Shown here piece by piece: positions 26,437 through 63,447 of a stretch of DNA of 64,000 bases; within the stretch, counting starts at the first letter, position 1; each line of letters opens with the position of its first letter. The notes under the pieces are model-generated. The model was not told where the DNA came from. It did no database searches and saw only the letters and a list, made by a program, of their open reading frames with translations. The translations under genes were made by a program, and so were the position numbers. The DNA lies in the NCBI GenBank assembly GCA_022606135.1, contig JABYQN010000008.1, positions 1,674,001-1,738,000 of the forward strand, read 5' to 3'. The stretch comes from Fomes fomentarius. Its lineage: Eukaryota; Basidiomycota; Agaricomycetes; Polyporales; Polyporaceae.

Positions 26437-28601
26437 ATGCCATTCGATTTTAACCCAAACACCATCCTCCTCAACATCACCACTGAAGTGCCTATTGGTC
26501 AGCCCAACAGCGACGGCCGCATGCGGTTCATCCGCAACATGTGGCCGCGCTCTCGAGACGGGGTGTACCTCGAGAAAGACCACGGCCCCCTGGGCTTCCG
26601 CACGCCCAACGGCGAAGTCTGGGGCCACTCGCTCGACGAGCTCGGTTACATCCAGCGCGCCCCGAACATTCCTGGGTGGGTCACCGTGTACTCGCGCAGC
26701 CAGATAAAGGAGCTCGGAGAGAACTACGACGACGATGTGTACGACGAGCCCCTCAGGCGTTCGCGTGTGCGCCGCCCGTGGCCGGTGCTGAAGCTGCCGC
26801 GGAGGCACCCGGCGAACACGGACCCTCCGCTTGGTGCGATTGACGGAGGGTGTGAGGAGGAGCATGCGGATCCCGAGGAGCGGACGTACATCATGCGCTG
26901 GGACGAGTACAGCGACGACAAGACGTCTGGTAAGGCACCGCTCTCTGACTCGGATTCGAAAGGCAAGGCAAAGAAGGAAGAGACGAAGTACGTGTGCCCT
27001 CCCCTGACGTGCTCTGCCGACCCCTCTCAACCTTGCCGCGGCCGACTGGTTCCCAACGACGGCCCCGAGCCTCGCCCGCACCGCGCTGGTTACGCGTACG
27101 ACTACATCTGGTGCAAGCACTTCGTTGCGCGTCTCAAGGCGCATAAGGATCCCTTCAGGCTCGTGGCGGGCACGATCCACGAGATGAGCCAGCCGCGCCT
27201 GGCTGCGGACGCCGACGGCTTACTCATTCTCAACGAGACTCTCAACTCGCGCGACGTGCTGGTTTGCCATGCTGGTGCGAGTCGCAGGGGCTATGGCGAT
27301 CTCAACAATTTCCTTGCTGCTGCGGAGGACTCGATCTTTGGCCGGCCTGCTGCTGAACTTGAGCTTGTGCTGCCTGACGTCGAGCCTGAGGAAGGCGGAG
27401 GAGGGCCTGGCGTGATCCGCAACGACTCTGAGAGCAAGGACGATGATGTGATCATGGACGAAGAGGGATTGTCTGACCAGCCGATGAGTGATATGTCTAG
27501 GTCTGAGAAGGAAAAAGTACAGCACGCACCGGGCCTGTTCTCTACGCAAGACCTCCCAAAGCTCGAGGAGTTCATCCCAGAGGCCCTCTTTCCCGACGTG
27601 CTCCTCGTTCACGACCCGCACAAGCTCACGAACCATAGCCAGCCCGGGTCCGGGGTCGACTCGGAGGACAAGCCGATCAAGTACAAGCGCATATACCCAG
27701 TCTTGCCATCGAAAGAACTCAAGGGGGATGAGGAACACGTCGCGCACCTGCACCTGCACCCGACGAACCGCTTCGGACAAGGGCATCACTCGTACGTCTA
27801 TCGCGCCCCGCTCACCTTGCCCGCGCCGCTCTCTGCGCGCTCGCGCACGGGTCAGTGCACCGTCGCGGCGAAGCTCGCGTACCCGCGATGCACCGCGCAC
27901 CGGCTCCTGCGGAACGAGGGGAAGATGTATGCGGCGCTCCCGAAGCACACGCAGGAGGAGTATTGCGGGTATAATGTCATCCGGCCGTGCAGGCACCCCG
28001 TGCCTGTGGGTGCGATCGTGCCAAAGTTCTATGGGTACTACTTGCCTGTCGACGAGGGGGTCGAGAATGAAGGTGAGCGCGCTCAGGATATGGAGGAGGA
28101 GTGGGGAGAACATGCGGAGTGCGAGCAGTACAGACCGTGCAGGGTGAAGTGGACGAGCCCGATCTTGCTCATGGAGGAGTGCGGGCAGCCTGTGCAGCCA
28201 GAGAAGTTCACGCCCGATCAGAGGTGCGCTTTTCCACTGTGTTGAGTCGTCGTCATGTCCTCTTACTGACTGAACCTGGATTCAGGACGGAATGCTTCTC
28301 GCTCATCCTCCGGCTGAACGTCATGAACATCATCCAGGGCTCGTTCTACGTCCGCAACGTGATGATCCAACCGGGCCCGCTCACCGCCCCGCCCTCGCTG
28401 CGCTCGTTCGACTGGCCGAGCTTCCGGATCATCGACTTTGGGCGTGGGGATATGTGGGGCTCGGAGGAGAGGAAGAGGCAGCGCGAGGGGTGGACGAAGG
28501 AGGAGCTTGCAAAGGCGTACGATAGCTGGCATTGCAAGTTGCGGGAGGAGCTGGCGGATGCGAGGAGGGCGCTGTTGCTCGAGCAGCATATTGGGTTCTG
28601 A
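26437..28601 (+). CDS. Kinase-like protein K1 (probable pseudokinase)
   Basis: Exons 26437-28223 and 28286-28601 give 700 aa. Residues about 30-240 form an N-terminal module shared with K2 and K3 (GFRTPNGEVWGH, IKELGE, RPWPVL, CSADPSQPCRGRL, YDYIWCKH). A linker with LPKLEEFIPEALFPDVLLVHDP-type sequence follows (about 370-395). Then comes a protein-kinase-like fold: glycine loop NRFGQGHHSYVYRA (about 442), beta-3 lysine in VAAKLAY (about 475), alpha-C glutamate in LLRNEGKMY, hinge ILLMEECG (about 576), and in exon 2 the catalytic loop IIQGSFYVRNVMIQPGP and metal loop IIDFGRG. The HRD motif reads QGS, so the catalytic aspartate is Ser, while the Asn and DFG are kept. This predicts weak or no phosphotransfer. 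The ATG at 26437 replaces an upstream TTG-started reading. Its paralogs lie at 51-63 kb. Confidence 0.85.
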
Positions 28602-28942
28602 GAAAGCTTAGTGTATGCGTATACGTAGAAGTCAGGCTGATCCTTGCACGAGTCAAGGTAGTACTACTACGACACTGGCAGGGTACGACTTAGCGCAAGT
28701 AATATGATTACCAGGGAGAGTGCATAGACAAAGACGAATTAAATTGAATTACAACTGTATGACAGCCTCATGCAAACTACTTCGGGAGCCGACGCACGCG
28801 TTTGACAATCACGCACAAAAATGATATGGATTTGATACAACTACACCCGTGGATTCACTCGAAGCTTTACAACTATGTTACATTATGCTTGGAAGTCCTG
28901 CTTGAACAATGATTATATATGCATTGTCATATAGACAATAAG
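28602..28942. other. Intergenic region between convergent genes
   Basis: AT-richer 341 bp between the 3' ends of K1 (+) and the Stf2-like gene (-). No gene is seen. Confidence 0.6.
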
Positions 28943-29534
28943 TTAGACGTCTTGAACGGCGTTGGTCTGCAACAAACAATCGATCAAAACCCGTCATTGT
29001 CATATCGTCGTTGATCATTGGGGGACAACATACCTGAGCATCGGTAACAATGGTGATAGGCTGCTTAGGGGAAGTCGAAAGGGCTGGCGCGGTGCGCGCG
29101 ATGGAGCCAAGGTCGACGTCGGGCGACTTGAGCGCCTTCTTGCGGAACTCGATACCCTGCTGGACTTCCTCGGGCGAGAGCGAACTCGCACGACGCTCAG
29201 GGACAGCAGCACGCTCACGCTCGTTCTGTGCATTCACAGCAACGCCTGGAAGAAGGAAGCAGTTGTATGAGTACCTAGCACGCGATCAACCTTATACGGC
29301 CAAGGGCGAAAGCTTGAGCCTAAGGGGTTGGAGCGGATACTTACCGGTAGCCTCCTCGAATTCGGCCTCTTCATCTTGAAGAGCAGCGTTCTCAATGTCA
29401 AGCTCGTCCTCGAGGCGACCCCAGTTGTGTGGACCCGCACCCTTCTTGGGGATGCGCTTGTCCATGCCGTTCTTGGCCTCAGAACGGTCCTTGTTGAGCG
29501 CGTTAGGGTAGGATGCGCGGGCGGTGCGAGTCAT
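28943..29534 (-). CDS. Stf2/Tma10-like conserved small protein
   Basis: Three exons on the minus strand, 29534-29345, 29245-29034 and 28966-28943, give 141 aa; the last exon encodes only seven residues plus the stop. The N-terminus (MTRTARASYPNALNKDRS, GMDKRIPKKGAGPHNWG) matches the small fungal family that includes yeast Stf2 and Tma10, related to hyaluronan/mRNA-binding (HABP4/PAI-RBP1) proteins. These are hydrophilic, stress-linked proteins associated with ATP synthase or ribosomes. The rest is charged and Ala/Glu/Arg-rich, with a helical-looking stretch around residues 70-110 and no membrane segment. It is transcribed divergently from the OCRL-like gene. Family placement is from memory of the N-terminal motif; the precise function is open. 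Confidence 0.7.
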
Positions 29535-30388
29535 GATGGAGGGCGAGTGTATGTGGGTATGTAGAGACAACAGATGTGATCCGATTAGAGGAGACGACAA
29601 CTGCAAGGGGTGAGATGACGGTGAGAGCAAGAGAGACGTGGTACGGGCGGGTGTTATATAGTCTGGGGCAATCCCGGCTGGTGCTGCGCCACCAGAGCAC
29701 CAAGGTTCGTGAGCCTGCGCCCGCTCGCGTGACAGTGTCGCCAAAGAGGGGAGGGAGCCCGTGGCCAGGTCTCGTCGCGCCTTCTGGGACTTTCGAACAC
29801 GCCCGCTGTCCTGGGGCCTTCCCGTCCGTTCTAGTCCCTGCCATCTTCTGTTTTGTCTTCGCGGTGTTCTCGACCTTCGCGTATGTACGCGTGCTACTGT
29901 TCCTTTGCCTCACGCAAGGTCCTTCACTCTGTAGTGTTTGCCTGCTCCTGAATGCTGGATTGTGCGGGGATGAACAAAGGCACAGACCAGTGGGGTCGCG
30001 TGCGGGCGGAGAATGGACCGTCATCATATCATGACACCGTCCATGCCAATGACCTATGCGGGGAAACGTGGGAATCCGGTTCGGCACAGTGACATCTGGA
30101 AATTGCCGGCGCTCTCTTGGGACCCGGAACACCCCGCATACACCGCTCCTGGTGCGGCTCCATCCATAGCGAACTTGAATATACTCTGACCCACTGTCTT
30201 CGACGAGCTTCGAGCACCACGCTTCTGCTTCCCGAGCTTTCTCATACCTGCTCTTCCGAGACCGGAGTTGACGACAACGGCAACGACAACGACTGAAAGG
30301 GTGACCGACGTTCAAGGCCGACGCGACACGGCGTCACTAGAGAACTCGCTTGGCTTAACTTGACTCTCCAAGCTTCAGGAACAGAGAC
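29535..30388. other. Shared divergent promoter region
   Basis: 854 bp between the start codons of the minus-strand Stf2-like gene and the plus-strand OCRL-like gene, so both promoters must lie here. ORFs on both strands are artefacts of open GC-rich sequence. No clear TATA element is seen. Confidence 0.5.
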
Positions 30389-33300
30389 ATGGCGCAGTCC
30401 AGGCCTGCTATGGACGTGGCTCAAGACATCATCCGTCCGACGGAGGACGTCAAGGTCGCGATCGACGCCCGCTTCGCGCCCAGGACCGACGTCGACTCCG
30501 AGAACTGGTCGGTGAATGACCACGAGCCATCTGTCCCGAGGAGGAAGATCCTTGCCGTCATCGTCCATGTGCACTCGGATGGCAGACATGAGCAGGGATG
30601 GTGAGTGCTTCTGCTAATTCTTGCCGTCTGTGCGGTCCTCGGGTCAGTGGCTGCGGCACTCGTGAAGTGTGTTCGAACCTTGCGGGGTACGTCCGAAGCA
30701 TCATGTGAGTGCCTTGTGGGCTATGTATGGACGTTGAGAAGACGTATTCTGGGACTTAGTGTCTTGCGTCGGGGCGCGTAGGATTGCGCTGTCCGCATGT
30801 CTTGATAGCAAGGACATGCTGCGTTGATTCGGGTGCACATGATGCGAAGGATGCTGCAGCCTTCGCGTCTCGTGCTCGCGTATGCACCTACTGGCTGGGT
30901 TTTTGGTACCATGGTCGATCGCAAACGTGCTTGAGGGAGAGCATCTGCTTCCGGCAAGTAGTTGAGCGTTCTCGGTGGGAGAGACGCATCTCAACGGGCA
31001 TTCTTGCGAAAGAACACCGACGCTTCGTCCCTTGCATGCTCTCTCGGTCGCGCCTCGTGCATGGCGGGTGGAGTAGTGTTTCCCGCATTACTGCCGCAGT
31101 CATACCACGCTTGAGTGTGTTGAGTGTGGAGAACAAGTTGGGAACACCTACCTTTAGCTGTTCCCCCGAGCCATGTTGTTATGCTTGATGAACTTTGCAG
31201 AAGCCTCCAGAACCTAAAGAAGGCCTTGGAACGTTTGTTCCGCCTCATATGCAGTTCTTGGAGGTGCTCGTAAAGACGAGAAGACGGCAGCGGCCGTGTA
31301 TGCGCTATACATGAGAACGATAGCTCAATGGAAGCTCCGCCCTCCGAACATGATATCAGAATGTCCCTCACCTGCGGTCGTGTTTAGGTCAGGAATGCCG
31401 CATATGCTCTCGTATCCGTGTGACGAGGTGTATGCATGGGTCACATCTAGTCGCGCAAACTCGGATATGTGGCTCTCCCCGGCTCCACCGCGTGCGGGAG
31501 TACAGGGACACCATCGCACCTACAGTTTGGTTTCCGGGATTGTTTGCCGTGAGTACATAGTTGCCGATTGGCCCGGCATATCGTGCGCCGCGGTCGAATG
31601 GCGCTGCTATCCATGAATCATCTGTCGCGCTTCACGGCCGTTGAGAGGTGATTGCATGTCAAACAAGGATCCGGGCTTCACGCACGCTCATCGGGACGCG
31701 AGTGAAAGCCCGTGTTTCTTGTTGGACATGCTCAGCCTTTCGCCGTATGTGTGCGGGGCCGAGGTGGTTGGGGAGTATGCCACGAAGTGTCCATTACGAT
31801 GCAACCACCTGCGCGAGATCGGTTGGAGGCGCACACAAAGAGGTTCAGTAATGATCATTGCAAATGTGCATCTACATGGTATGCGTAGTGTGCACTACAC
31901 TTCCAAGACACCGGGGTTCTTGAAATACTTGGCAGCAAGGCCAGATTAGTGGACCACAAATCTTAGAATCGCTCTGCGCGTCGCTCCGCCCTAGATCGGA
32001 CCAAGAAAGATGATGACTCACATGCTGCATTCACAGTATCTTCGTATTCGCTCAGAAGCCTCCAAGGATACATTCTATACCTGACGACTACGTGGTTGAA
32101 CACGCCTTTCCGGTCATCAACGGCTTCTCAATATCTATGTCCCAGCCCCGGCAGATGACCATAGACCTGTCCTCGCCTCAGCCTGGAAGCTCGTTTTCTA
32201 AAACTCAGCCTAGAACAGGTACGTTCATAAGCCGAAAGCGCTGGGCGTTGTGGTTTCCGCATTCCTTCCGCAGTCGGACCTAGGGTCCGCTGAAGCTCCG
32301 TGCCAGGATCCACTACCGGGTAAGAAGGGCATGTCAAGTATGGTGATACAGATGCCTCCACGCAGCACTTGGCGGCGTCTCTCCGTTAATGCTGGCTGTG
32401 CCTCAGAGGCCAACCTTCCTCTGCCGCCTACTCAGTGTACCCGGTAATCGATTGACATCACACATCAGTGACCACACATGGTCGAGACGGAAGCGAATCG
32501 AGCCACAGTGCTTACCATCTTGTCATGCTTGTCATGGCCGCCCCTGTCGGAAGCGATGTGTGGTTCACCATGCTGATCTCTAGTGCTTGCAGAACTTACC
32601 GTCACCATCAACCCGGGAGAAGATACCCCATTTTCACCTATCACCCTGCAGACGAGCGATACCCAGGGCCTGCGTCGTCTTCTCGACGAGTGCAAGCGTC
32701 TCAAGGAGAACTTCAGTAAGCTTGTTACGCCACTTTCCCGGGAACAAATTTTGTGATATCGTTCAGCCGCGTTGACGGACGATGACTACGACTTCGAACC
32801 CTTCGCGTGGGTGGCGCCGTACATGGCCGACCATGCGATCCCACCACTCCGTGAGTGCTTGTGGAGTCTCCGATCCGTGTGTGTGGTTTACGAGACAAGG
32901 GGATTGACAGTTTCGCCGATACCAACCGACTTACGAACACTGAAGAAGCCAATCTATGACCGTCTTGCGCCAGCTAGCGCCGGTCTGCCCGGCAACGACG
33001 TCGCGGACGTCGAACTTATCCGGGAAGAGTGGTTGCGCCAGAAGGTCCAGGGCGACCTGTTCGCGCTGCGCGCGAAGGCGGAGCTCAAGTGCGTAGCAGC
33101 TTGTCCGCACCCGAGAGAGAAGTCACTGCGGGTCGCGGGTGGTGCGGTTGAAAGGTTCTAACCGCAAGTGGCCCGGCAGGATCCGTGTTGGTACGTTCAA
33201 CGTGAACGGCAAGTTCCCGTCGCAGGATCTGTCGGCGTGGGTTCGGAGGGAAGAGCCCCGGACTGCTGCTGCTTCTTCGGCGTTCACAGGTATTCCGCCC

Positions 33301-36300
33301 TTGAGAGAGATATCCCCTCTTTCGTTAGGAGAACATCAGAAGGTCCCTATTGAGGGGATGATCAGTAAGTATCGTTGAGCCTGTCTACTATCTCGTACTG
33401 TGCACATGGAAATGACACATCCATGCGGCCCCCTGCAGCGCACCCTGGCAACCTGACCCCGACGGGGACGGCAACGGGGCATCCTTCAGCCTTAGGCTCA
33501 GCAGAGACGAAGTCGCTCTCCGCAGAGTCAAACGCCACCACAGTCGCGAACCCGCCTGTGCCGGTGTCTGGCGAAACACTTGTTTCACATACATCGCAGG
33601 ATGTCCCTGAGGACCCGAACGATCCAGACATGCTCGTGCTTGGTTTCCAGGAGCTCGACCTGTCGACGGAGGCTCTGCTGTATTCTACGACGACCGCTCG
33701 TGAGGAGGCGTGGTGCATGGCCGTATTCGCGGGATTGGGCGAGAAGGCGGTCCTGTACGAGAAGGTGAGCGCCCGACGTTATCGTCTCCTCGTTCTTAGT
33801 TCATTCAGCGGTGGCTATGCGGGACGAAACGACCCTGTCCGCCACTGCGAACCAATTGCACTGCTCCTCACTCGTTAGCTTGCGTCAAAACAACTTGTCG
33901 GGATGCTTTTGGTCATCATCGTGAAGAGGCGGCTTCGGTCCCAGTTCAGCGAGATACGCACGACCTCAATCGGAGTTGGCATCATGGGCATAATGGTATG
34001 CACGGAAGATGGCTTGTGGTGCGCGCTTGTTGATGGCGGCTTCGTCCCACCGTATTAGGGCAACAAGGGTGCCACAGCGATACGCCTCTTGTTCACGCCG
34101 ACGCCGTCCCCTCCCTCCGGGCCGGTGGCAGACTCGGATGGAGAGGAGCCTCAGGGCCGGCCCACTGCGCTCACCTTCGTGAACGCGCACTTAGCCGCGT
34201 TCGACGAAATGTTTGAGAAACGGAACGCCGACTTCCATGACCTGTCAAAGCGGCTGGTGTTTGAGCCCGTGATCTCCGTGGTCGAGGAGCAGCTGCCCGG
34301 GAACGGCAGCTGGTACACTCGGGCGGCGACCCCGCTCAGTATCTTCGATTCGGACGCCCTCTTCTGGCTAGTGAGTACTAATTGGCTTTTCTGTGTTACT
34401 CCGCGTGGCTGTCGGCGAGGCGCTGATGCATCGCGGCTCTTGGGTGGTGCATCGGGTGTAGGGCGGTAAGTGTGATAATATCCAACACCCTGATGCGCTG
34501 GAAGTCGGGAGTTGTGACGAACTAATCTCCTTTGGTGCAGACTTGAACTATCGGCTGGTGCTGCCGGACGCCGACGTGCGGACCTTGCTTGCGGAAGAGC
34601 AGCTGCGTGACGAGAACATCAAGCTCTTGCGAAGGTTTGATCAGGTTCAAGCGGCGTTACATTTTGGTGCGCGTCACTGCGCTGACGCCTCCATCTTTAC
34701 AACCACAGTTGGCATCCGCGATGAGGACCAATAAGGCATTTGAGGAGTTTGTTGAGCAGCCTATCACGCACGCGCCGTGAGTCTGTTGGATTGTTCGGAA
34801 TTTGCCATTAAACAGAAATGCTCATGGAATTCCCCTCAGCTCGTATCGCTTCAACACGGGTACCCTCGCGGATTCACTTGGTTACGACATGAAGTGCGTA
34901 CGCATGCTCCTCCCAGCGTTGTCGTGTGGGTACTTAGATCATCCCGCCCGCACAGACGCAAGCCTGCTTGGACCGATCGGATTCTTCACCTGGCGTCAGA
35001 GGCGGTGACGGTGAAACAGCGGTCGTACTCGAGCCATGCCACCATCACGATGAGCGACCATCGACCCGTGTCTGCAGAGTTCGAGCTGGAGGTACGTGCG
35101 TTTGGCACGGCGAGCAATCCAGCGCCACAGGACAAGCTATCCATTCTCCGAGCTGTCCGATGCCGGCATGGATCTGGCCCAAGGGCTTCTGTGACGTTCA
35201 GACCTGTCGCTGAGTCTTCTTGGTAATCCCGCACGCTGACTTGGTCTGGCCAGGTATCCGCGCTTAGCCTTTCGGAGTACGAGTCATTCGTGCACCGCCT
35301 CTGGCGGGATGTGTCAGGCATCGAATACGTCGAAGAACGGCCACGGGTTCGGGTGGCGCCGACCAACATTGACTTTGCGAGATTATCGTGGGTGCAGCCT
35401 TTTGACCATGTGCTGTCCGTTTGCGTTGGGACTGAAAAGGGTTACACCAGGTACAAACACCCCGTAACGAGGACAGTGGAAGTCGTGAACGTCGGCAAGG
35501 TGCGTCGATCCGCGGACGAGAAGCAAAACTCTGTTTGTGACGGAAACCCGTAGGTCCCATGTTCGTTCCGGTTTGTGTCTCACAGCCCTGTCGCGACTGC
35601 GTGTAAGCTGTTGTACCCCTCACTTCAAAGCCGGAGCGCTGATCTAGATTGCCCTCAAGGTCCATCCTGGCTGCGCATAGACAGAGCGACTGTATGTGCT
35701 AATCTCGGATGCGAAGCTTGTGACCTGCCTCACAGTATCTTACGTGCAGGGACTTGTTCTTCCAGGGGAGACGGTGGAAGTTACCATCACCGCTCATGTG
35801 GATGATACGCTCGCGGCGCAACTGAATGTCGGTCAGGTCCATCTCGAAGACACCCTAGTGCTACACACGGCGTTCGGTCGGGACCACTTTGTTGCGGTCT
35901 CAGTGGATTATGGTCCGTGATGCCTCGGCCGCCTCGAACAACTTGCTAATCGTCGGCTTTAGAGCGCACATGTTTCGCAACTAGCATGTCGTGGCTTGTC
36001 CGCCTTCCAGGACCTATCAGGGCTCTGCAGTCTCCGAATGACGTCTTGTCGGAAGATCGTGGCGTCAACGCACCTCGCGAGATTATGAGACTAGTGAATT
36101 GGTTGATGAGTAATGCGACGACGGTAAGGCGCTACTCTTCGAAATGACGGGCTACCCTCAATGGGTTACTCGGACGTAGGACGGCCTCTTCTTACTTCCA
36201 GGCGAAGAGGATCTTGTTCGCAAGATTCGCGAGGTAAGTTCATCCATTGCACTCCCACGTACCATGCACAAGACCAAATGTGATCCATGGAGAATTTGGA

Positions 36301-45168: not shown

Positions 45169-47503
45169 TTATGATACGGTTTGTTGAGATAGGGGTGTAG
45201 AATGCGGTGCTTGGTAGACGTGTGCCAAGGCAAGGAGCGTGACACCATGCTTCCTGTCAGTGTTGGCTGACGTCATGGTATCAGTGTGTTGATCGGGAGG
45301 GCAAGTCAATGCGAAGTGTCGTTTGTGAGAGCTGCAACTTGAACCAGCTCTATCATCATGAACATCTTCCACCTCCTGGGCTCCCCACAGCGGGCACAGA
45401 CAACGCACGCCATCCTCGTAATCCGCCGAAACACTGAATTTGATGTTAGTCTCCGAGTCCCGTTCCCCTGACTCGGCCGGAAAGTTGGAATACCAAGGTC
45501 GGTGGAGCGCAACGATTCCTACGGGTTCTGGATCTAGGCTGTGATGATCTTCAAGTTCCACCTTCACCATTACGCGAACTGGGCCAACTGACGGCCTGTC
45601 CGGCCAGATGATAAACCCGATACGGAGAGAGCTGTGATTCTTCTTGTGGAGCGTGATCGTATGCCTATGCATGCTCCTGGGCGGGTGCCGCACCTGGAAT
45701 CCACCTCGTGTACCATAATGCTGTACCAAGCTTCCATCCCTCTCGTGCATGGTCATACACCACGGGTCTAGCTCGACACCTGGCATGCTCGTTATGCCAT
45801 GGGCACCTAGCCGGCGACCGTATCGATCTGGCGTCATCGTGCCATTGACTATGAATGGGCATATAGATGTGTTTGAGCACGACATGGCACCTCCACATGG
45901 TCAATTGCTCGTGCGATACACGCCATAAGCGAGCATTAGGGCTGGTATGCCGGCCGCGGAGCTTTATGGTCCCACCAGCCATCTCCATACAGGCATCCCG
46001 AGATTCGATGGATCCGGCGGGTATTTTGGTAGGCCTGAATCCCACAGAGATGGCCGGCCATACAGACAGGGACGTCCGACGCCGTGCATCTTTGCTCGTG
46101 GTTGGGGAACGTCTACAGCATACAAAAACGAGGAGTCCTCCTGCCCCTGCGTGAGACTCGTCCACAAGTTCACATGGTAGGATCGCAAACTACCACGAGT
46201 CATCGCCATCGCAGAAAGTAGCGCAATATCGGGTAAGTAACTCGGGGTAGCACTGTGCGAAGGAAAGGAGGGGAAAAGAGATACGCACGCCATAAGGAGT
46301 CACCACCATCGCAGAAGGGATTATCATTTGAAGGCGGCGCATATATTCTGGGTGCGACATGCACCTAACTGAGGAGCTGCATGTAATGTCTTTGGGAGAG
46401 TGTGCAAGGATGGAATCAGGAACCACAGATGGGAGTCATGCTGACGTCGCCGGTACGTGAAGTCAGGGCACAGATAGTCGACGCATTTCTTCGTGACGTT
46501 GTATGTGAACCTCGGCCTGTCAGCGCTCAGACTCGGAATGGCCACATCTCCTACGTCACTCGCTGTCACCGGAAGATGCCATCCACTGAGGAGCCCCCAG
46601 GCAAGCAATGCTCTTGTCGGGATCCTTGCACATCATCTCTTCCTGTAGCCTGAGGAACGCCCGACTACCCTTGCCAGGAAGGATGGGCATAGAGATATTG
46701 AAGATCCCCAGCAGGGCATACACCATGTCCTCCACTCTCGTCGTTCTGCGCAACACGGCCCACGACATGCGTTGGGTTACGCTGAGACGTGACCGCTCCG
46801 TTCCCCTCCCGAGAACAGCCCGGTCGACCCGGGTGATTTCGTGTATCGTCCTGCAGAGTGTATGTACCCTTTGTACCGAGGTAGGTCCAGTCCCTTGACA
46901 GGAACACCACCGTCGCTGGTGCCACAAGCTCCTGGAGAGTCCACCCTCGAGTGAACCATTTACTCTCGCGGAAAGAAGAGCCCTCACCTCGGAAGTGATA
47001 GGCTGGCAGTCTGCGCGCGGGGGAGGGACGTCCGCGAGGTATGCATAGCAGATTCGTGCGGAACGATACCAGTTGTACAAGGAGTTGATCGCCTCGGAGA
47101 CCTGGTGCCTGCTCGACTTGTCGATGCAACACGAATCAATCCATATGTAGCGGAAGCTGTGCGTGCGCGCGACCGCACACGCTCCCCCGATATTCGCGCA
47201 GACCCTGGAACCGTAGAAGATGTTGAACGCTCGTAGGCGGGTCTCTTGGACAGCGGCTTCGAGGCTGATGCACCACTCCGCCAGACGATGTGCAAGACCC
47301 GCCTCCATCCTGCGGAGCAGTGGAAGACGCGCGCGGTAGAGGAACAGGCGCAGATGCGTGCAGATGAGGGAAAGGAGAGAGAAAATGTATAGCAGGATGA
47401 CACGACAAACTCGTGCAAGGACTGAGCTCCGTGCCCGATCGAGCACATAGATTCTTGGATAGCACGTATGTCCATGTACGACTGCTCTCCATCTGGATCC
47501 CAT
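45169..47503 (-). pseudogene. HET-domain gene, decayed
   Basis: HET domains mark fungal heterokaryon-incompatibility and related cell-death proteins. On the minus strand the core motifs appear in order but in changing frames: YIWIDSCCIDKSS and AINSLYNWYRSARICYAYL (about 47150-47020), SKWFTRGWTLQELVAP (about 46960), SVTQRMSW and TTRVEDMVYALLGIFNI (about 46780-46690), then LAWGLLSGWHL (about 46600) and a downstream VTPYGVRISFPLL block (about 46290). Frame changes near 47015, 46860 and 46615 have no usable GT-AG introns across them, so at least three indels disrupt the domain. The N-terminal ILSHTW-type opening was not found. A 238-codon ORF (45169-45885) is probably the remnant C-terminal region. 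Sequencing error could explain one change but hardly three. Confidence 0.75.
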
Positions 47504-48598
47504 ACGTGTGATAGTGATAGGATGGCTTAGCGAACTTCATCGTGGCTAGTGAAGGAACGAACCTCTCCGGTGACTGTTGAGCAACCGCTTTCGATCCAGG
47601 ATGGAGTGTTGTGATCAGTCACGTAATCTGCCAACGAGGATGGTAGTGATTCAGCAGTATCACTGACCTGAGGACCTCCAAGTACGATGTGCTGTGATTG
47701 TGCTGAAGATGAGATTGGCGTTCGATGGTGGTCGACTCACAACTTGAAGTTGAACTTCATCACCGTGAGAGGACTTCAGATAATGTCTCTGAGAGATACA
47801 GTGATCGGCCCGGCCCGGCCGCGAATTTTGATTGCCAGGGAACGGTCCTGTCTCCTCAAAGCACCCAAGCTTACAGTAAAGTGAGGCCTATAGATTCGAC
47901 AACCACTATAATGAATGGATATGACCAAAGGTCACTACATTGACGGGAGAGTGCCATTCTGGTCTCCGCCAATCAGCGCCCAAACCAAGTCACAGTACTG
48001 TCACGGACTCCGAATCCACAGGCCTCGCACTGCATGTCCTAGGGCCCATCACAAACCTAAGCAGCAGCCCTTTACTCCAACAGGCACATATTAGTCTACT
48101 ATGGTTAGTCACAGTGGCAAATATTCATCAGGCAATAACTCGTGCCAGTATCTGCGCTCCTACCATGCGAACACTAGCCCGTCCGACCGGGGGTCTGTAC
48201 AACAGCAATCTTGCATCACGTCGAAGCGTGGTTGTGAGTTCTTCCCATGAGAGACACTAGATCCGAGTTCCATCTCAAGGGAGCAACAGTGTCGACCGGG
48301 TGGCTAGGTGACAGCAGAATCCACTCCGGGCGACTTGAGAGGTAGCATTCTGGCCGATGATGAGAATCATATCGAGAAGGTGCACAGTCTAATAGAGCGT
48401 AGAGGGAGAGCAGACTAGACCCTGACCGGTCACTGCAACGTATCGAGCACAGTTACAAGCAGCGCATTCTTAGTCTCCCCATGGACGTGGGGAAGGGCGA
48501 TCATATAACAAAGCATTCTGCAACGGCGAAAGACCACGGTAAATACCAAGTAGCACGTCAACGTCCAGGCACTCACAGCATTCAGGTGCTGTCTGTAG
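47504..48598. other. Intergenic region, about 1.1 kb
   Basis: Between the HET pseudogene and the next pseudogene. Short ORFs only. I looked for the missing HET N-terminus on the minus strand and did not see it. Confidence 0.5.
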
Positions 48599-50599: not shown

Positions 50600-50626
50600 G
50601 TACCTCCTGCATCTCATCCAAACGAA

Positions 50627-51173
50627 ATGGCCGCGCATGCTGCTCGCCTTGCCCATCTCCTCACTCCAGAGTTCGCATGCCGGATAAATGCACAGATTGT
50701 GCACCCTTCCATCTCGAAGCTCGTAAAGCCTAGCGAGCTCGAGTCAGCGTTGGCTCGTCCGTTGACTGTAGCTATGCAAGAGCCCAACTGCCACGCCACA
50801 TACCTCGCCGCGAGCCTCTCATACGGTATTATACAAGGTAGCATGGCCTCCATATTCGATGTGCATCATCACTCATCAAAGCCATTGCTCAGGACATCCG
50901 TTCTTGGATGGTAACAAACGAACAGGTATGTCTTCTGTTACGATCTTCGAAGTTGCGCGTCCGGGCCTCATTTCTGTCGGAGCTTTCTTGCTCGCCAATG
51001 AATACTTGCGTGCCCAAGGGCTTCCAGGTGTACTCGACGAAGGGAAAATTGGCACTGTCTATCAGGGGCTTATAGATATCGCCGATCGTCACATGAATGC
51101 TGCAGTCGGAAAGCTGGATGACAATGGAGGGGGGCTTGCTCGGAATGTAGGTGCCGCGAAGTCGGAACCTTGA
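50627..51173 (+). CDS. Doc/Fic-family protein (bacterial-type death-on-curing)
   Basis: Three exons, 50627-50837, 50893-50925, 50983-51173, give 144 aa, close to bacterial Doc. The middle 33-nt exon carries the hallmark HPFLDGNKRT, and the first half has the helical Doc layout (residues 20-65). Fic AMP-transferases have GNGR in the motif; here it is GNKR, as in Doc, which in phage P1 phosphorylates EF-Tu as the toxin of a toxin-antitoxin pair. Whether this fungal protein has that activity is unknown. No Phd-like antitoxin was seen nearby. Introns at both edges of the motif show it has been fitted to a eukaryotic genome; an ancient bacterial origin is inference. If the second intron is retained, the frame stays open but the region after the motif no longer resembles Doc. 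The reading frame is intact. Confidence 0.85.
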
Positions 51174-51307
51174 GTTCTTACAATCGAAATGCGCACTCTG
51201 GGAAACCATCGCCTTCGCTCAGCGCCACAACCTACGTATAGCGGTTTATTGAACAAGAGAGTAACAACGACATCGCATCAGCGTGAAGGGGACAGACATT
51301 GACTTGA

Positions 51308-53187: not shown

Positions 53188-53681
53188 TCCAATCTTTCGA
53201 GTGGCTGGAAAGTCGGTGGTGAGAGCGAGATAGTGGTAGAAGGAAGTCAACGAGGGGATCAGTTCGACGGGTCACCGGGTGACAGGAAGCTTCAAATATA
53301 TACCTCCAGTACAAGCTGTCAGATTAGATCGATTCCCACCGATGAGGCATGCCTTTGCCTGCTGCCTCGAGCGTGGTGCACCGACTACCTTGAGTCATGC
53401 GCTTTGTCGTCGCAACATGAGGAGCAAAATATACTAGTGTTCACGGCACAGCCATACCGGTTATGTACTTAACCTAGTCCTCGCGTTTCAGAGTGATTAG
53501 CTCGGATCCTCGAGAAGCGGCACGTCTATCGCATCATGTACACTAACGTATGATACACAGTGACAAAAGCTCGAAACTCTATGGTACAGGGAGTCTCCAT
53601 CTATCCTACAGATGCGAACAGTGTGATTAGCCTCATACTAACTATCTATTGCATCGGTGAAGGAGAGGGATATGCACTTGA
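53188..53681. other. Intergenic region K2-K3 with duplicated flank
   Basis: Contains the K2 promoter and K3 3' flank. The block around 53580-53625 (ctatggtacagggagtctc, then acagatgcgaaca) recurs at 55966-56011 downstream of K4, which marks the repeat unit of the tandem array (about 2.38 kb). No gene is seen. Confidence 0.65.
53296..53302 (-). promoter_or_regulatory. TATA element upstream of K2
   Basis: ATATATA about 110 bp before the K2 start. An equivalent TATATA stands at the same distance before K3, next to a shared aagctt word. Confidence 0.45.
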
Positions 53682-55527: not shown

Positions 55528-56079
55528 TGCAATCTGTCGAGTCGCTGGGAAGTCGATTGGTTATGTGGTGGAGAAGGTGAGATAATGGTGGAAGGAAGTC
55601 AATGTGTGGATTAGTTCGACGCGTGACAGTCGAAGCTTATATACCTCAGGCAGTCCAAGGTGGCAGATTGGATCGATGCTCACCGATGACGCATGTCTTT
55701 GGTCGCTTTGGTCCAGCTTGGTGCCGCACGGGCCACCTCAAGACTGCGCTTTGTGGTCGTGGACAGGGAACAAAAGAAACAACTGTGACTATTCACGACC
55801 TAATCTGGCGTGCTGGCACAGCCATGTCGGTTAACCTCGTGTTTTAGCGTAATTGACTCGGATCCTCGACAAGCGATAGCCATGATCTATCCTTTGTCTG
55901 TATGACTGAATGTAATGTACAGGAATCTACAAAGTATGATACACAAGTGGCAAGATCTCGAAAATCTATGGTACAGGGAGTCTCAATCTATTCTACAGAT
56001 GCGAACAATGCGAACAGATACAAGACAAAAAAAAGGATACAGAACTTCGTACTTTTCTCGTTCGGCACGGCTTCCCATC
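55528..56079. other. Intergenic region K3-K4
   Basis: Holds the K3 promoter (TATATA at 55638-55643) and the copy of the block shared with 53580-53625. A poly-A run occurs near 56026-56034. No gene is seen. Confidence 0.6.
55638..55643 (-). promoter_or_regulatory. TATA element upstream of K3
   Basis: TATATA 111 bp before the K3 start, matching the K2 element in position. Confidence 0.45.
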
Positions 56080-57298
56080 CTACAGTATGTTGATAAAACC
56101 CAACTCCTGCATCGTGACAAGCACATCTCGTTCCCGACCCTTCTCAAATGCGCGCTTCGCTCCCATGGCGCTCTCCAATGGCAGTATGTGGGCAAACCCC
56201 CGCCAACGACCAAAGCTGATGAGCCTGTAGCTCGGATTGTCCATTGAGCGTTCCTCAGGAGGCGCAGTGAGCGGGCCCGCTTGCACGAGCATGTTGCCCG
56301 GGATCGGGGAGCCGCGCGAGAAGCCCTGGCGATGCATGCGCTGGACGAGCTCTAAGCAGTGCTCTCTGTGACAAATCGCGTAAACGTGAGCATCGGGTTA
56401 TGACACAAGCACGACACAGTGACTCGGACTCGGGTACGAACCTGTGTGCTAACGACATGACCTCGGGCTGCTCCACAGGCTCTCCGCAATCCTGCATGAG
56501 CAGGATAGAGTTGGGCCAGTGCGGGACGTGACAGTCCGAGTTCGCGAAATCCTTGCACTCTTCGTGCGTGCGCGCGAGGATCTTTCCCTTAGAGTTCACG
56601 GGGACGTAGAAGCCGTAGAAGTTCGGCACGATTGGTGGTGCGAGGTTCTTGGGCTTCGACTTGGGGTTCATCACGACGCCCCAGCCGGGAAACCCGCGCG
56701 GACGCATGGCGGGCAGATGTGCCTTGAGTGGCGCGTCGGCGGAGATGAGCTCGGAGTCCTCGAAGAACTCGCGCGGGAAAGCAGCGTAGCCTTTCGCCTC
56801 CTCCTTCAGGAGGTGGTGGGAGCGACAGCGAGATGTCGCTGTCTTTGCCACGACAGCAACGCGTGTTGGCGATGCGTCTGTGGGATGGAGTGTGGCGACG
56901 AGGGACGCGCGATGGACGTATGAGCGACGGCCTTCGGCCACAAGGTTTGAAGAGTCGAGGTGAAGCTGGCCCTCGCGTGGCTCCCTGTCTCGGGCTGGAA
57001 CCTCGGGGAACACGCGCTTGTAGCGCAGAGGCTGACCCGCCCTCTTCGTCCTCCGATTGGTTACGTTGCTACGATCGAACACGACGAGGACCTCGGGAAG
57101 ATGGTCCATCTCAATGAATCTTTCGAGCTTCGGGACACCATCTATCGAGTACGGATCTTCGACGTCCGGATACTGATTCTGTGTCGGGATGGACTTCCCA
57201 GCAACTTGGACGAGTGGCGTAGGTGAGGTGTTCTCCTTCCCAGAATCGGAAGATGAGGAGATGTCCTCAATAGAGGGTTGGCGTGGTACTCCAGGCAT
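56080..57298 (-). CDS. Kinase-like protein K4 (degenerate pseudokinase)
   Basis: Exons 57298-56442 and 56365-56080 give 380 aa. It lacks the 230-residue N-terminal module and begins with a Ser/Pro-rich tail (MPGVPRQPSIEDISSSSDSG), then the linker (VPKLERFIEMDHLPEVLVVFD). The fold markers are eroded: the glycine loop reads NLVAEGRRSYVHRA, with no GxG. The beta-3 lysine (VVAKTAT) and alpha-C glutamate (LLKEEAKGY) persist, and the hinge is ILLMQDCGEP. The catalytic loop is FSRGSPIPGNMLVQAGP (Asp to Ser, Asn kept). The metal loop is LISFGRW, so the DFG aspartate is also gone. Catalysis is therefore very unlikely, yet the reading frame and the shared intron are intact, which suggests a retained non-catalytic role. 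Confidence 0.82.
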
Positions 57299-57897
57299 AA
57301 TGGGGTAAGGAAAGGGTATGTGGTTGTGCGATCACTGCTGCAGCGACTTGTCTACGGTGATTACTAAGATGTGGTTGGATAGTCGCACTGAAGCCGCTAG
57401 TGACAAACGGAACACAAAGCGTCAGTATCACATGTTCTGTTAAGCCTGCAGCTTCAGCAGCAGCAAGCTTACGTTCTGAGACCGTAGTATGTGGCCTGAG
57501 GTTGGGCGGGTCGAAGGTTGGTGGTGGTTGAGGTCGAAAGTGAATCGATCATCAAGCGCCCGTATCAAGCTTGCATTCTTCCGTCCGACATGTGGCCGGC
57601 GTGGCCACTTTCTCAAGGTGCTTCTTTGCGTTATCATTACTCCGACGACCACAATCGTGTTTATCTTCCCGCATACGTATCATGATCATTGTCGTAGTGC
57701 ATTACATAGTAATGTAGTAACAAGCCGCTGACGTGACGTAGGTCCGCCCAGTCAAGACAAGGAAGCGCTGAGCGCTGAGAGGCTGACCGCCACGATTCAT
57801 TATAGTACATCTGCTGTAGCAAGCGTTCGCAATCTACAGTAGACCTTGATACGTCAAAAAACAACGAAATAACGAAGTAGACGCACCACCAAGCACC
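57299..57897. other. Intergenic region K4-K5
   Basis: About 600 bp upstream of K4 and downstream of K5. The part around 57600-57870 is AT-richer. No gene is seen. Confidence 0.6.
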
Positions 57898-60041
57898 TTA
57901 ATCCTCCCACTCATCCGAGTCCGAATCCGAGTCATAGTACCCTGAGTTATCCGTCTCGCTCACGTCCTCGTCGATGCCGTATTCGCCGATGTCAACCCCA
58001 AGATCGTCCCAAAGCGCAGCAAAGTCTGCGCCGCGCATAGCGCAGAAGCCAGCCCGGAACAACGGGTTGTTCGTCAACGTGAACCCATCCCCCAACCCAA
58101 AGTCGACAATCCTGAAGCTCGGCTCGTCGAGCGAGCGCTCTGTCGGAGGCGCGGACAGAGGACCGGGTTGTATGAGGAGCTTGTCCGCAGAGAGGCTACC
58201 GTGAATGAAGCCTGACTCGTGGAACAAGTTGAGAAGCATCAGGAGAAGCATCCTGTACCGGGGTCGTCGTATGTCAGCTATGTATATTCTCAAATACGGC
58301 GGAAGGAGAGAGGTGAATGAAGACGGGGGAGGACGTACTTCTGGGCCTTCGTGATGCCCGCCGGATCGACGGGGTCGCCGCAATCCTCGATCAACAAGAT
58401 TGGGCACGGCACATCGTAAGCCTGGTGATCGCCATCAGGGCCACAGTCGTTTGCAAACAGCCCATCCTCGTGGCCCTCGAGGACCGGGACGTAGTACCCG
58501 TAGAACCTGGGGATTGTCGGAGGAACTTCAACCTGCGCGAGGTCTCCACGCGAGAAGCGGAGTTGAGCTGGGGGTGGCTTGTTCTCTCCTGCTGAGGAAG
58601 CGTCCTTGGATTTGAACGTTTTCTTCATCAAGCTGCGGAGCATCTTCTTTACGGGCCCTTTGTGGCTCGACTTTCCTTTGCCCATCGACGGCTGCTTCTC
58701 CTTGCCGTCAGTCTCTTGCGACGGTGCAGAGTTGGACGCGGACGCAGATGGGTTTGCGCCTGACGTGGAAGCCTTGGTTTTGTTCTCCTCAACGTACTCG
58801 AGCATGGTCCCGCGCATGTGTCGAGGTAGCGTCACCATGTACGTCTTCATATAATCCTCCGGGACCGCCTGGTACATGCGGGCCTCTTGGTTGATCTGAG
58901 AATGGGCGCCGCAGACTGACACCGGGATCTTCGCGACCACACGGGAGCGACGGGGGACACCGTCAGCAGGCTTGTACGCGAACTCGATCGGCGCCCTGTA
59001 GACGTCGGAGTGAGCGCTGCGGGCGATCTGGTTGCCACCGGAGAGATAAAGGGTAGCCGTGCCTCGGGGAGGGTTGTGATCCGTTGTTGCACGTAGAGGC
59101 GAGACTTCTTGTCCCTTCACGGTCAGTTCTGCGTTGACCCGGATGTAGCGGATGGGAGAGACAGAAGTGGGGATGGTTTGCGAGATGCGGTGGGGGTCGT
59201 GTACGTAGAGATCGTCAGGAAGCTCGTGGCTAGGAATCAAAACATCTAGGGCTGCCAGACCAGCTAGAGAATAAGCGCCGACTTCATGGTCGGCGAGGGT
59301 GCTGGCAATGGGGGCAACCTGCACATCCTAGCGGACAGCGATGATGAGAGGGGAGGCGAGAAGTAGGAGGTAGTGAATGAGGATTAGTTAGTGAGCAGAA
59401 GACCAGGAATCACTCACAATGTCGTCCGATAGCGAATATCTTGGGGCGAGGCCGGGCGGAGAGAGGTCGTTCGCGGGCGAGTTGCTCGAGTTCGAGCCGT
59501 AACCTTCGGTGATCGGCGAGTCGTCAGTGGATGGCGAAATCTTCTCGACCTTGAAAGAAAGGTCTGTAGAGAGTTTGGAGAGCGGAAGTGGGTGTGAAGC
59601 GGAGTCCGACTCCCTAACCATCTGGTTCTTCAAGCCGATCGAGCCTCGGAGGCTCGGGACTGGGGTCGGTGGGGGAACGGGCGGGAAGTATTCGTCGGCG
59701 TCGAGCGTAGGAAACTGAGCAGCAGCCATATTGGAGGGTTTTGGTCGCAAGTACTGCGTCAGATTCAAAGTGAAGGGCGAGAATGCAGAAGCGCGGGAGC
59801 GCGCCTGCGTTTTGAGCTGCCCGTAAGCGGCTTTTGGCGCCGGTTTAACCGACGGTGCGCTGTTGGCGTGGAGCCGGGAGAGCAACCTGCCACGCTGGTT
59901 GCCATGGCTGGAGGGCCGGGATGTGGGGTTGGGAAGGGGTTCGTCGATGTAGTCGAAATGATGGACCGAGCCGTTCTTGGACTTCGATGGATAGTTTGGA
60001 CCACGTTCAGACGACCGGCGAGTGAACCTAGCGTTAGGCAT
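57898..60041 (-). CDS. Kinase-like protein K5 with long Ser-rich N-terminus
   Basis: Exons 60041-59418, 59327-58339 and 58252-57898 give 655 aa. Residues 1-208 are Ser/Pro/Arg-rich and probably disordered, unlike the N-terminal module of K1-K3. The fold starts with linker LDVLIPSHELPDDLYVHDP, then NQIARSAHSDVYRA (glycines lost), VVAKIPV (lysine kept), QINQEARMY (glutamate kept), a basic Ser-rich insertion of about 100 residues (KSSHKGPVKKMLRSLMKKTF), PRFYGYY, hinge ILLIEDCGDP. After the family intron come FIHGSLSADKLLIQPGP and IVDFGLG. His of HRD is present, but Asp is Ser and the metal-binding Asn is Lys; DFG is intact. The acidic tail ends DSDSDSDEWED. The first intron (59328-59417) joins the Ser-rich exon in phase. 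If that splice is wrong, 59418-60041 would be a separate gene. Confidence 0.75.
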
Positions 60042-61471
60042 CGTAGTCTTGAGGTCTTGAGATGTTGTACTCCGCCTACTACAACCCGATATCGATGCTG
60101 ATCTGTAGTCAATCGAGGACCACTGCGTTGAAGGCAATCAGTCTTGTTTGCGGTCTACTGAGCGGTGGGATCTTGTCGTCGCAGGCGGGAGTCGAGTCTG
60201 CGACGTCTCCGTCTTGCTGATATACAGAGGATCAGCCACGATGTGTGGCCGTTGTGGCCTTACGGAGGCTGGACTCAGGGGCATTACCATTCGACGATCG
60301 CTTGAGTGAGAAGTTTGACATGCCCGATAAGGCGACGAAACCCACCAGTCTGACTAGAACCCTGTCGGATCCGCACTGAGTTCTTGCGACGGTGGCTGAT
60401 CCTACTCATGAACAACGGAGAAGCTGGCGTCCGTTGGCTCCGAATGCATACCTAGAAGGATGCCAGCTCACGGTCGCAGCGTCAAGACAAGGATAAGCCT
60501 CGGGGCCACACCTGCAAGACGCACGGGTGCAATTAGCCCACGAGGTTCGGCGAAGATCAAGAACAGATCGAGGCCATGCTCACCACACGAGAACAGATGA
60601 CGCAGGTGCCACCCACCAGATGCTCATGTATGTGGAGTACTATACTCGCTAGTTTCCGCAGACAGCAGACAGCTCATCACGCCTTCGACAAGGATGGAAA
60701 TAAAGTGAATTCTAGTGGTACGTAAGGTAAGTGTGTGGGGTGATAGATAGAGCAACAGAGGGGCATAAGAAGACCCCGAACGTCGCTGAGGAAGGGTCAG
60801 TAACTACGTCCGAACTCGAAAGAAGCAAAAGCCGAGCCAATGCAAGCGACTCGAAGAGAGAAAGTCCGCAAAGCCATAGACAACTCGGAAAGTCCGACGA
60901 AAGGGATAGGGTGTTGTGAAGGGATGATACAATGCTCGGGATTTCAACGGATACATGGGCAATACACAATGAATGGCTCTTGAGTCGTCGGAAGTCGTGG
61001 AAAGGTCACACGAAGTATTCGGCGAGTCGTGATCGAGGCATTGGAGGACGAGTCATCCCCGGTATACGTCGTGAAAGTCTCGTTGGTCGTCGTTGGATCT
61101 GCGAGCAAGATTATCAGCGGATCCTGCTCGACAAGGCCACAATATCGTGCGCAAGCCACAAATAGCATGGATGAACACCGATATTCGTGCGATACGGCGA
61201 TGTCTATCAGCACGTCAATCTCACGTAAGCCAGTCTATTATCCAGCGAAGACCAGGCTTTCAAGCAAGATAACAGACTGCTTCCTTGAGCTCAGTGCATG
61301 CCGGGCTTTGGCCGTCTTGCAGACGCGCTGTAATCACAAGACCCAGGAGAGAGGAAGACACCTACGTGGCGAGTCATGATAAGTTTCGCCATGGACATGG
61401 GCGCCCGTGAATCATACGGTTGTGTGACTGGGAGAGTATGAGACGACGAGGGCGAGAGACGGGCAAGGGGT
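60042..61471. other. Intergenic region, about 1.4 kb
   Basis: Upstream of K5 and downstream of the minus-strand membrane protein. ORFs are under 120 codons on both strands and lack motifs. No gene is called. Confidence 0.5.
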
Positions 61472-62071
61472 CTACACACCGAATCGCGAACGGCTGACTT
61501 GCCAGTCCATCCTCGTCAGCTCCGTACCGCCGACATAGCCTTTGGGCTCCTCTAACTGCTCATCCTCACCGATGAGGGAGTCTAATGAGAAGGAGACAGG
61601 GAGGCCGCTCCAATTCCAGAGTGGGCTCTTGCCGGAAGTGATGCTCATGTCTGGAGCCGGGGTGTCGACCCCTGACTCGACTCTATGCGCGAGGCGGTGG
61701 AGGGAGCCGGAGCCGACACAGACGACGGCGAGTACGGAGGTGAGGAAGGAGAAGACTAAGAGGAGCTGGAGAAGTGAGAGCGAGAGAATTTCGCTCATGG
61801 TCGATAGCCGTAGACGGGGTGATGCCGGGGAGGCCTGCGTCGACGTCTGCTGGAGAGTGCTAGCAGCACTGGCGGACGCGGCGAATGATGAGCTCGACAG
61901 CTGTCGTGGTTGTCGAAGCGGGGAGAGCGGCGACGACAAGCACTGGAGGTGGGAGCTGAGAGGAGCGAATCCCACCCCAGCCGTTGCTATCTTTGCCTGC
62001 GCACTCATCCCGGCAACGCCCGGCTGAGCACTGTTACCCACCGCCTTCATCGCGCCTTCTCTCGTCGCCAT
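61472..62071 (-). CDS. Small single-pass membrane protein, unknown
   Basis: An uninterrupted ORF of 199 aa. From residue 92 it reads MSEILSLSLLQLLLVFSFL, a hydrophobic segment of about 24 residues ending VLAVVCVG, followed by a hydrophilic tail with acidic patches (LIGEDEQLEEPKG) and the end SRSRFGV. An internal ATG at 61798 (MSEIL) would give a 108-aa protein that starts right at the membrane anchor. The preceding 91 residues are Ser/Ala/Pro-rich and may be translated 5' leader. I favour the short form biologically but give the full ORF. No family is recognised. It stands alone on its strand between K5 and the K6 pseudogene. Confidence 0.5.
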   Translation of the reverse strand: MATREGAMKAVGNSAQPGVAGMSAQAKIATAGVGFAPLSSHLQCLSSPLSPLRQPRQLSSSSFAASASAASTLQQTSTQASPASPRLRLSTMSEILSLSLLQLLLVFSFLTSVLAVVCVGSGSLHRLAHRVESGVDTPAPDMSITSGKSPLWNWSGLPVSFSLDSLIGEDEQLEEPKGYVGGTELTRMDWQVSRSRFGV

Positions 62072-62677
62072 CCTGTTTCTGTCGTCGTCGTCGTCGGACT
62101 CGTTGATTTGCTCGCTGTTTTGCTCTGGCTGCTCTGCCTCGGGTATTCTCTTGCTGGGTGTGCAAAGGGGCAGGTACCACGCCCTCTGTCGATCTCGCGG
62201 CTCTACCGTTGCCAGGCTCTACGAAGGTGTCTCAAACGCGTGCCATTCATATGTTGTACCAGGTAAGCGGTTCACGGTAATGTATTGCTATGCTACAGAG
62301 ACCAGGCAACATTTTTCAATGAATGTATTCAATGCTTGACTGGACGACAACTTCTTTGCACGTCTGGACCTGGAAGTTCTGCCCTCACGTTCATCCTCCC
62401 ACCAATCATCGAGATTATGAGTGTGGAAGCTTATGAGCAGTCCTCCCGTTCCTTTCTCTATCCTGCTACTGGGCCGTCAAATCGTTAGCTCAACCTTGCA
62501 TAGATGGTCTGAAGCGTGGTCAACATCCCTGCGCTATAGATTGAGTTCAAATGACATAGAATGTAGTGCATCGCGGCGGGACAAAAGCCTTTGTCTTGCG
62601 GCGGCCTGGGCGTTCGTTCGTATGTATACCACAGTCTCTCATCCTACCAACAACCAACCACCAACCTCACGAACACG
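62072..62677. other. Intergenic region with CGT-type microsatellite
   Basis: Divergent promoters of the membrane protein (-) and K6 (+). A gtcgtcgtcgtcg run lies near 62082-62096. Nothing else is seen. Confidence 0.5.
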
Positions 62678-63447
62678 ATGCTCAATTTGCTGCGCGAGCT
62701 TCCCCGAAACGTATACGAACGGTCCCCTTCAAAGCGTCGCTCCAGCTCCTCTATCCCAGTCACGCTACTACCAAAGTATGTGGCCCCAAACGTGGACAGC
62801 ATCCCTGCTCTGAACGTAACCATACGGGATGAATGCCTCCCGGACGACCTGATGGTTTACGACCGATTGGGCCTTACGGGACGTATCGCTCAGACCCCAA
62901 TTCACTATGCGCGGTTCTACCCTGTCCTGCCTCGAGACTCGAGTGGCTTCCCGAATGGCAAGCGAGGACGCATGCCCAAGTACTTCTCGGGCCCCTGCGC
63001 CATGTGGCTCATCTGTACCTTGATTGTGCAGCACAGCTCTCTAGTGGATCGCAAAGTGTGGTTCTACGGACGCCGGTTGTGCTGCCCGATTACCTCGATG
63101 GGCGGGATGAAGGGAAGACCAGCATGGTCTCCGTGGTGGTGAAGTTGGCACGTGGTGTATGTGGCGCGCATCAACGCCTCATGGAAGAAGCAAGCCTCTT
63201 CAGCAGCGTGTCGCGCATGTTCGCAACCACAGCGCACTGCTATGACGCGGCCTTGGACGGTAACGTGGACTTCGGAGTGGACGACATCCCCAAGTTCTAC
63301 GGCTGTTATCTCCCAGTGCGGAGGGATGGCTCGATGAAAATCCGAGCTCACGACGATGGGTGTAATGAGGAGTGCGAGCGCGAGATAATGTGGGCATCGC
63401 CCATCCTGCTCTTGGAGGAATGCGAGGAGACGATCAGCGCGGATTAG
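62678..63447 (+). pseudogene. Kinase-like paralog K6, pseudogene
   Basis: The ATG at 62678 opens a reading frame with the family linker (PALNVTIRDECLPDDLMVYD, then FYPVLP). The family continues in another frame from about 62990 (HVAHLYLD, VVVKLAR with the lysine, LMEEASLF with the glutamate, PKFYGCYLP, ILLLEECEE), so a one-base frameshift lies between about 62950 and 63000. At the point where the paralogs have the codon CAG and the conserved splice donor (gatcagag|gt), this copy has TAG (63445-63447), and the donor gt is lost. The catalytic-loop exon is not recognisable downstream; a faint RQGIDYIHYTRCN remnant follows near 63510-63550. It lacks the N-terminal module, like K4. Three independent lesions make it clearly non-functional. 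Confidence 0.8.

Follow-up and report, generated by a model that had tools for sequence, protein, structure and literature searches.

A family of kinase-fold proteins with serine at the catalytic aspartate position, tandemly expanded in Fomes fomentarius and present in other Agaricomycetes

A 64,000-nucleotide window of the Fomes fomentarius genome (contig C8, positions 1674001-1738000; 40.9 Mb in 24 contigs) contains genes for kinase-fold proteins, designated K1-K6, and the group continues beyond the window as K7-K10. K1-K5 and K7-K10 belong to an uncharacterised Agaricomycete kinase-fold family whose ancestor had a serine in place of the catalytic Asp of the HRD motif and a short C-lobe. Judging from the sequences of the relatives, the serine appears as an old, preserved family trait that the ancestor already had and not as a recent breakdown. 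We lean, by a modest degree, towards the view that these are ATP-binding, non-canonical kinase-fold proteins that may serve as nucleotide-dependent switches or scaffolds.

The conservation of the serine was evaluated in relatives from three database searches (5.8 billion proteins, E≤0.001), which gave 125 (120 listed), 68 and 88 proteins. The 244 different relatives among those listed were aligned to the family profile together with nine Fomes proteins, and 249 of the 253 gave a stretch (247 distinct). The HRD position was reached by 166 proteins, 157 from the databases and nine from Fomes (164 distinct). All 166 had Ser at the position of the Asp, one of them (P0196) by misalignment. Since the serine is family-wide, the change from Asp to Ser predates the duplications of the cluster. 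The 'H' position was Q in 140 proteins, H in 20 and N, R, Y or L in the remainder, and the 'R' position was occupied by G, N, Q, K, R, C, Y, A and others. The residues that usually serve nucleotide binding were nearly invariant: the beta-3 Lys was kept in 238/239, the alpha-C Glu in 243/243, the catalytic-loop Asn in 165/168 (the exceptions being K5, its database copy P0122 and P0196), the DFG Asp in 166/168 (exceptions K4 and P0196) and the Arg at HRD+4 in 162/168, while two glycines of the glycine loop were kept in 222/234 and 230/235. Site rates calculated from a 77-row tree placed the serine first of 326 positions, in the slowest class, followed by Lys (3), Asn (5), Glu (9) and the DFG Asp (19). 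The HRD 'H' and 'R' positions ranked 52 and 163 and thus drift beside a frozen serine. Furthermore, the serine is encoded by TCN in eight Fomes members and by AGC in K5; these codon sets are not joined by a single base change, so selection seems to maintain the serine as such.

The genome was searched with K2, K7 and a distant member from Russula. Ten loci were found in about 58 kb of C8 (1.7005-1.7580 Mb), and outside this cluster the search gave a single short, weak match on C7 (E 0.002). An earlier note on this DNA had counted six related genes; there are ten, of which K7-K10 adjoin the window. Spliced models were rebuilt for K1-K5, and their coordinates are given here as window positions. 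K1 (exons 26437-28223 and 28286-28601, + strand) has the glycine loop GQGHHS (27775-27792), Lys (27871-27873), Glu (27916-27918), QGS with the Ser replacing the HRD Asp at 28341-28343, Asn (28356-28358) and DFG (28434-28442). K2 (exons 53187-51647 and 51596-51308, - strand) and K3 (exons 55527-54026 and 53970-53682, - strand) both have the loop GSGHHS, QGS (Ser at 51541-51539 and 53915-53913, respectively) and DYG (51448-51440 and 53822-53814). Two members are eroded. K4 (exons 57298-56442 and 56365-56080, - strand), which is without the N-terminal domain described below, reads AEGRRS in the loop, RGS (Ser 56310-56308) and SFG (56217-56209). K5 (exons 60041-59418, 59327-58339 and 58252-57898, - strand) reads ARSAHS in the loop, HGS (Ser 58197-58195, the AGC codon), Lys instead of the catalytic-loop Asn (58182-58180) and DFG (58104-58096); the first of its coding exons was absent from the earlier note. 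The Lys and Glu are present in all five and the Asn in K1-K4.

The models of K2 and K5 are identical, letter for letter, to the NCBI Fomes fomentarius proteins P0001 (hypothetical protein, 609 residues) and P0122 (655 residues). NCBI P0005 lies inside the K3 model, being the same protein begun at an internal Met, and looks mis-annotated; the model of K8, P0123, looks mis-annotated as well, with an alternative splice that skips the catalytic loop. The intron ahead of the catalytic exon lies at the same codon in K1-K5, in the phase after the second base. A matching solution is available in K7, K8, K9 and K10, some of which would equally accommodate alternative splice sites.

The remaining loci were also inspected. 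K6 (62678-63447, + strand) is a pseudogene and so does not add to the five intact genes: the pieces that match are spread over two frames, 11 bases apart, the last piece contains an in-frame stop, and although the beta-3 Lys (63142-63144) and the alpha-C Glu are retained, no QGS motif is readable downstream. K7 (C8:1738325-1739930), K8 (C8:1741397-1742935), K9 (C8:1752689-1751032) and K10 (C8:1758782-1756254) lie beyond the window and were delimited from stop to stop at their upstream ends. In K9 a stop occurs ten residues past DFG and a different frame carries family-like C-terminal sequence, so this locus may be damaged or misassembled.

Taken over the cluster, Ser was found in nine of nine readable catalytic exons, as QGS in K1, K2, K3 and K9, as RGS in K4 and as HGS in K5, K7, K8 and K10. 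Motif erosion is limited to K4, K5 and the broken K6; the other members keep the Lys, Glu, Asn, DFG Asp and glycine loop. For K1-K5, the motifs agreed with those of the earlier note, namely Ser in all five catalytic exons, a glycine loop intact in K1-K3 and lost in K4 and K5, the DFG series and an Asn lost only in K5, as did the common intron and the open frames, and the Lys and Glu could be read in all six genes of the window. Its proposal of a stepwise loss of catalytic motifs was not borne out, the serine being family-wide and only K4 and K5 among the five intact genes having lost further motifs, and its inclusion of K6 as an intact family gene had to be abandoned in view of the frame change, the stop and the unreadable catalytic loop.

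The predicted structure has the bilobal topology of the protein kinase-like (PKL) superfamily, as the kinase fold assumed in the earlier note would require. The C-lobe is short. From DFG to the C-terminus, the 153 members measured have 47 residues at the median (quartiles 36 and 54; maximum 184), and APE-like letters follow DFG in 2/153 members. Five of six ordinary kinases of the same genome were readable, and four of them have APE 19-23 residues past DFG. The K2 model closes with one long helix, residues 580-601, in which residue 594 is acidic (Glu or Asp) in 98% of aligned rows; this helix may be the F helix and 594 its structural acid. So short a C-lobe could hardly accommodate the usual site for peptide substrates. 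An N-terminal domain that is also conserved, WSRSMIKE...RPWPVL, comprises residues 1-128 of K2 (53187-52804, - strand) and is present in K1-K3, K9 and many relatives. It gave a confident predicted model, for which a comparison with the PDB returned no match. In the genome search, the K2 domain matched only K1, K2, K3 and K9.

Larger profile scans (16 and 66 members, 72 distinct, E≤10) were employed to compare the family with known kinases. PF00069 was not listed for any of the 72 members or for K1, K2, K4 and K5. K7 scored 16.2 bits against the related PF07714, whose cut-off is 23.1, and no whole protein among those with the cut-off shown reached that of a Pfam kinase profile. The only kinase models matched in the 72-member scans were those of Kdo kinases, weakly. 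With respect to the canonical traits of PF00069, the HRD Asp (replaced by Ser) and the activation segment with APE are absent, and the beta-3 Lys, alpha-C Glu, Asn and DFG Asp are present, except for the DFG Asp of K4 and the Asn of K5. The proteins therefore show the loss of at least one of the VAIK Lys, HRD Asp and DFG Asp, which is one mark of a pseudokinase. Membership in FunK1 (PF17667) was considered, a kinase-like family that is also expanded in fungi and was originally reported from the mushroom Coprinopsis cinerea (PMC3203195). Unlike FunK1, none of the 72 members matched the profile, and none of the 145 listed exon-level matches in the genome (best candidates) lay in C8:1700000-1759000. 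Membership in SelO (PF02696) was likewise rejected, with 0/72 members and no match in the cluster; all five genome matches lie on C4, that is, in a separate gene.

The named hosts include many polypores, Mycena, Dentipellis, Russula, Lactarius, Thelephora, Plicaturopsis, Jaapia and Botryobasidium, genera of several Agaricomycete orders. Many relatives are named in the databases merely 'Protein kinase domain-containing'. One member, P0176, comes from a metagenome-assembled genome of Peltula, a lichen ascomycete, and groups with Thelephora, indicating contamination or transfer. No description of the K family was found in the top-ranked titles and abstract openings of the literature on fungal kinomes, fungal pseudokinases and Fomes. 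A Fomes fomentarius transcriptome study with 27 conditions reports contiguous clusters of co-expressed genes, kinases among them (PMC11827164).

The history of the paralogues was analyzed on a tree from a short search, with the Shimodaira-Hasegawa-like approximate likelihood ratio test (SH-aLRT) as the only support. K1/K9 cluster with Ganoderma and Lentinus proteins, K2/K3 with Ganoderma, Dichomitus, Lentinus and Daedaleopsis, and K7/K8/K10 fall in a third polypore group. K4 and K5 join a Daedaleopsis protein (92) on long branches, which makes their placement unsure. Among the rows used there are only three Fomes-specific pairs, K1/K9 (95), K2/K3 (99) and K7/K8 (100). The description of the family as lineage-expanded thus holds for these pairs; the larger paralogue groups are common to Fomes, Ganoderma, Lentinus, Trametes and Daedaleopsis. 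Moreover, the locus tags of members in Ganoderma sinense (GSI_08868, 08872, 08883, 08912) and G. adspersum (V8D89_000199, 000214, 000220) suggest that there are clusters in those species too. The pairwise ratio of nonsynonymous to synonymous substitution (dN/dS) in the kinase domain was 0.32 for K2/K3, 0.46 for K7/K8 and 0.28 for K1/K9, and synonymous change was saturated in more distant pairs. These values support coding constraint on the kinase domain in each of these recent pairs.

A role as nucleotide-dependent switches or scaffolds is favoured because the Mg-ATP residues are the most constrained, the catalytic base is absent and STRAD-alpha offers a precedent. STRAD-alpha, the pseudokinase partner of LKB1, is a kinase-fold protein whose HRD Asp is replaced by Ser, as in the K family; it binds ATP and acts by its conformation (excerpt of PMC2686265). 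Most members of the K family would bind Mg-ATP, but phosphorylation of proteins by the usual route would not be expected of them. Binding of the nucleotide may set the conformation of the kinase domain, and of the N-terminal domain where there is one, and this conformation would control a partner protein as STRAD-alpha does LKB1. K4 and K5, having lost parts of the nucleotide site, would be nucleotide-independent scaffolds if they are functional, and K6 is dead.

Several points weigh against this interpretation. In STRAD-alpha the beta-3 Lys, one glycine, the Asn and DFG are gone and an ordered activation loop remains, whereas the K family keeps the Lys, glycine, Asn and DFG, which is more than a pure scaffold needs, and ends soon past DFG. 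A residue at a dead site can drift, as in MLKL (PMC4718504) and PSKH2 (PMC7586955), and an invariant Ser is therefore unusual for a merely dead site. EphB6 (HRS) and PSKH2 (HRN) resemble the K family in that the HRD Asp is replaced, but they are vertebrate paralogues inside otherwise known kinase groups, and the PSKH2 position varies between Asn, Asp and His by species (PMC7586955) where the Ser of the K family is invariant. Furthermore, the genome search matched the N-terminal part of K2 to none of K4, K5, K7, K8 and K10, so this domain cannot be essential to the mechanism, and where it would sit on the kinase domain is suggested only by the predicted template modelling score (pTM).

The possibility was considered that the proteins are active, non-canonical enzymes that transfer AMP, or phosphate, without the HRD Asp in the manner of SelO; this is the main alternative, at a low probability. 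The DFG Asp and Asn would hold the metal, the DFG Asp would also be catalytic, and the Ser would position or be modified. SelO is an AMPylase that binds ATP in a flipped orientation (excerpts of PMC12409994 and PMC8097203). In SelO, the equivalents of Lys72, Glu91, the Asn and the DFG Asp are kept and HRD is replaced by HGV, QGN or HGS (excerpt of PMC3281104), much as in the K family, whose Ser, Lys, Asn, Glu and DFG Asp are among the slowest sites. Arg523, Arg553, Arg561 and Arg567 are, in addition, conserved at 98.8-100% in 82 rows. The claim that the proteins are catalytically dead is thus not established, since the Lys, Glu, Asn, DFG Asp and HRD+4 Arg hardly vary and active SelO also keeps the first four. 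However, a residue pattern is no proof of activity, the glycine loop is ordinary and the peptide-substrate-binding part of the C-lobe is absent. The missing PF02696 match also counts against this reading, the more so as the genome's own SelO was detected, though a SelO-like mechanism would be compatible with failing profile membership. In a broader and unlikely form of this idea, the family would be an Agaricomycete-specific class of active kinase-fold enzymes without HRD Asp or activation segment, in which the Lys, Glu, Asn and DFG Asp hold Mg-ATP and the Ser helps in positioning, passes through a covalent phospho- or adenylyl-Ser step or serves AMPylation of the SelO kind.

That the genes are simply dead copies decaying into pseudogenes, chance survivors in a fast-duplicating tandem array, is distinctly unlikely. 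The state of K6, the early stop of K9 and the long branches and lost motifs of K4 and K5 are what such decay would produce, but the dN/dS of the three recent pairs (0.28-0.46), the persistence of orthologous groups across polypore genera and that of the family across distant Agaricomycetes are not.

Minimal kinases of the Bud32/PRPK, Kdo and RIO types have a naturally short C-lobe and keep the catalytic Asp (HGD). The K family resembles them in its small C-lobe and in weak, sub-threshold matches: the Kdo/WaaP profile (PF06293, cut-off 21.3 bits) was matched by 3/16 and 2/66 members scanned, among whole proteins by P0126 with 20.1 bits (4.5e-4) and K7 with 19.5 bits (7e-4), K7 matched Bud32 and Kdo kinase models weakly, and the catalytic exons of K7 and K8 reached 21.5 and 21.7 bits against the Kdo cut-off of 21.3 with neighbours counted. 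A small-molecule or lipid kinase of Kdo/Bud32 type with a displaced catalytic acid, for example Glu594 of the last helix, acidic in nearly all rows, is nevertheless very improbable, because the Kdo profile also matches ordinary kinases of this genome and so indicates the superfamily only, the Asp of HGD is Ser in the K family, and position 594 is more likely structural, like the Asp of the F helix.

Other genes were noted in the window. K2 has a tail-to-tail neighbour, a Fic/DOC domain exon with the motif HPFLDGNKR (50772-51173, + strand; PF02661, E 7e-6), and an exon of a heterokaryon incompatibility (HET) domain (46556-47536, - strand; PF06985, E 1.2e-7) lies within the cluster, between K1 and K2. 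Upstream of K1, a tandem pair of similar paralogues (17712-19097 and 23484-24915, + strand), judged by eye from open reading frames, resembles Agaricomycete F-box proteins. Open reading frames at 847-3515 (+ strand) with basic KOW-like text and TPNPY repeats resemble, also by eye, the elongation factor Spt5.

Pseudokinases are already a known kind of protein. The K family is spread over many mushroom-forming fungi and tandemly expanded in Fomes fomentarius, yet its whole proteins with a cut-off shown stay below the Pfam kinase cut-offs. With a Ser frozen at the position of the catalytic Asp and the Mg-ATP residues intact, it offers a clean natural test of ATP binding only versus other catalysis, and K4 and K5 provide eroded internal controls within the same cluster. 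If the proteins do prove to be active, such an HRD-less class would escape surveys of kinomes based on Pfam kinase profiles.

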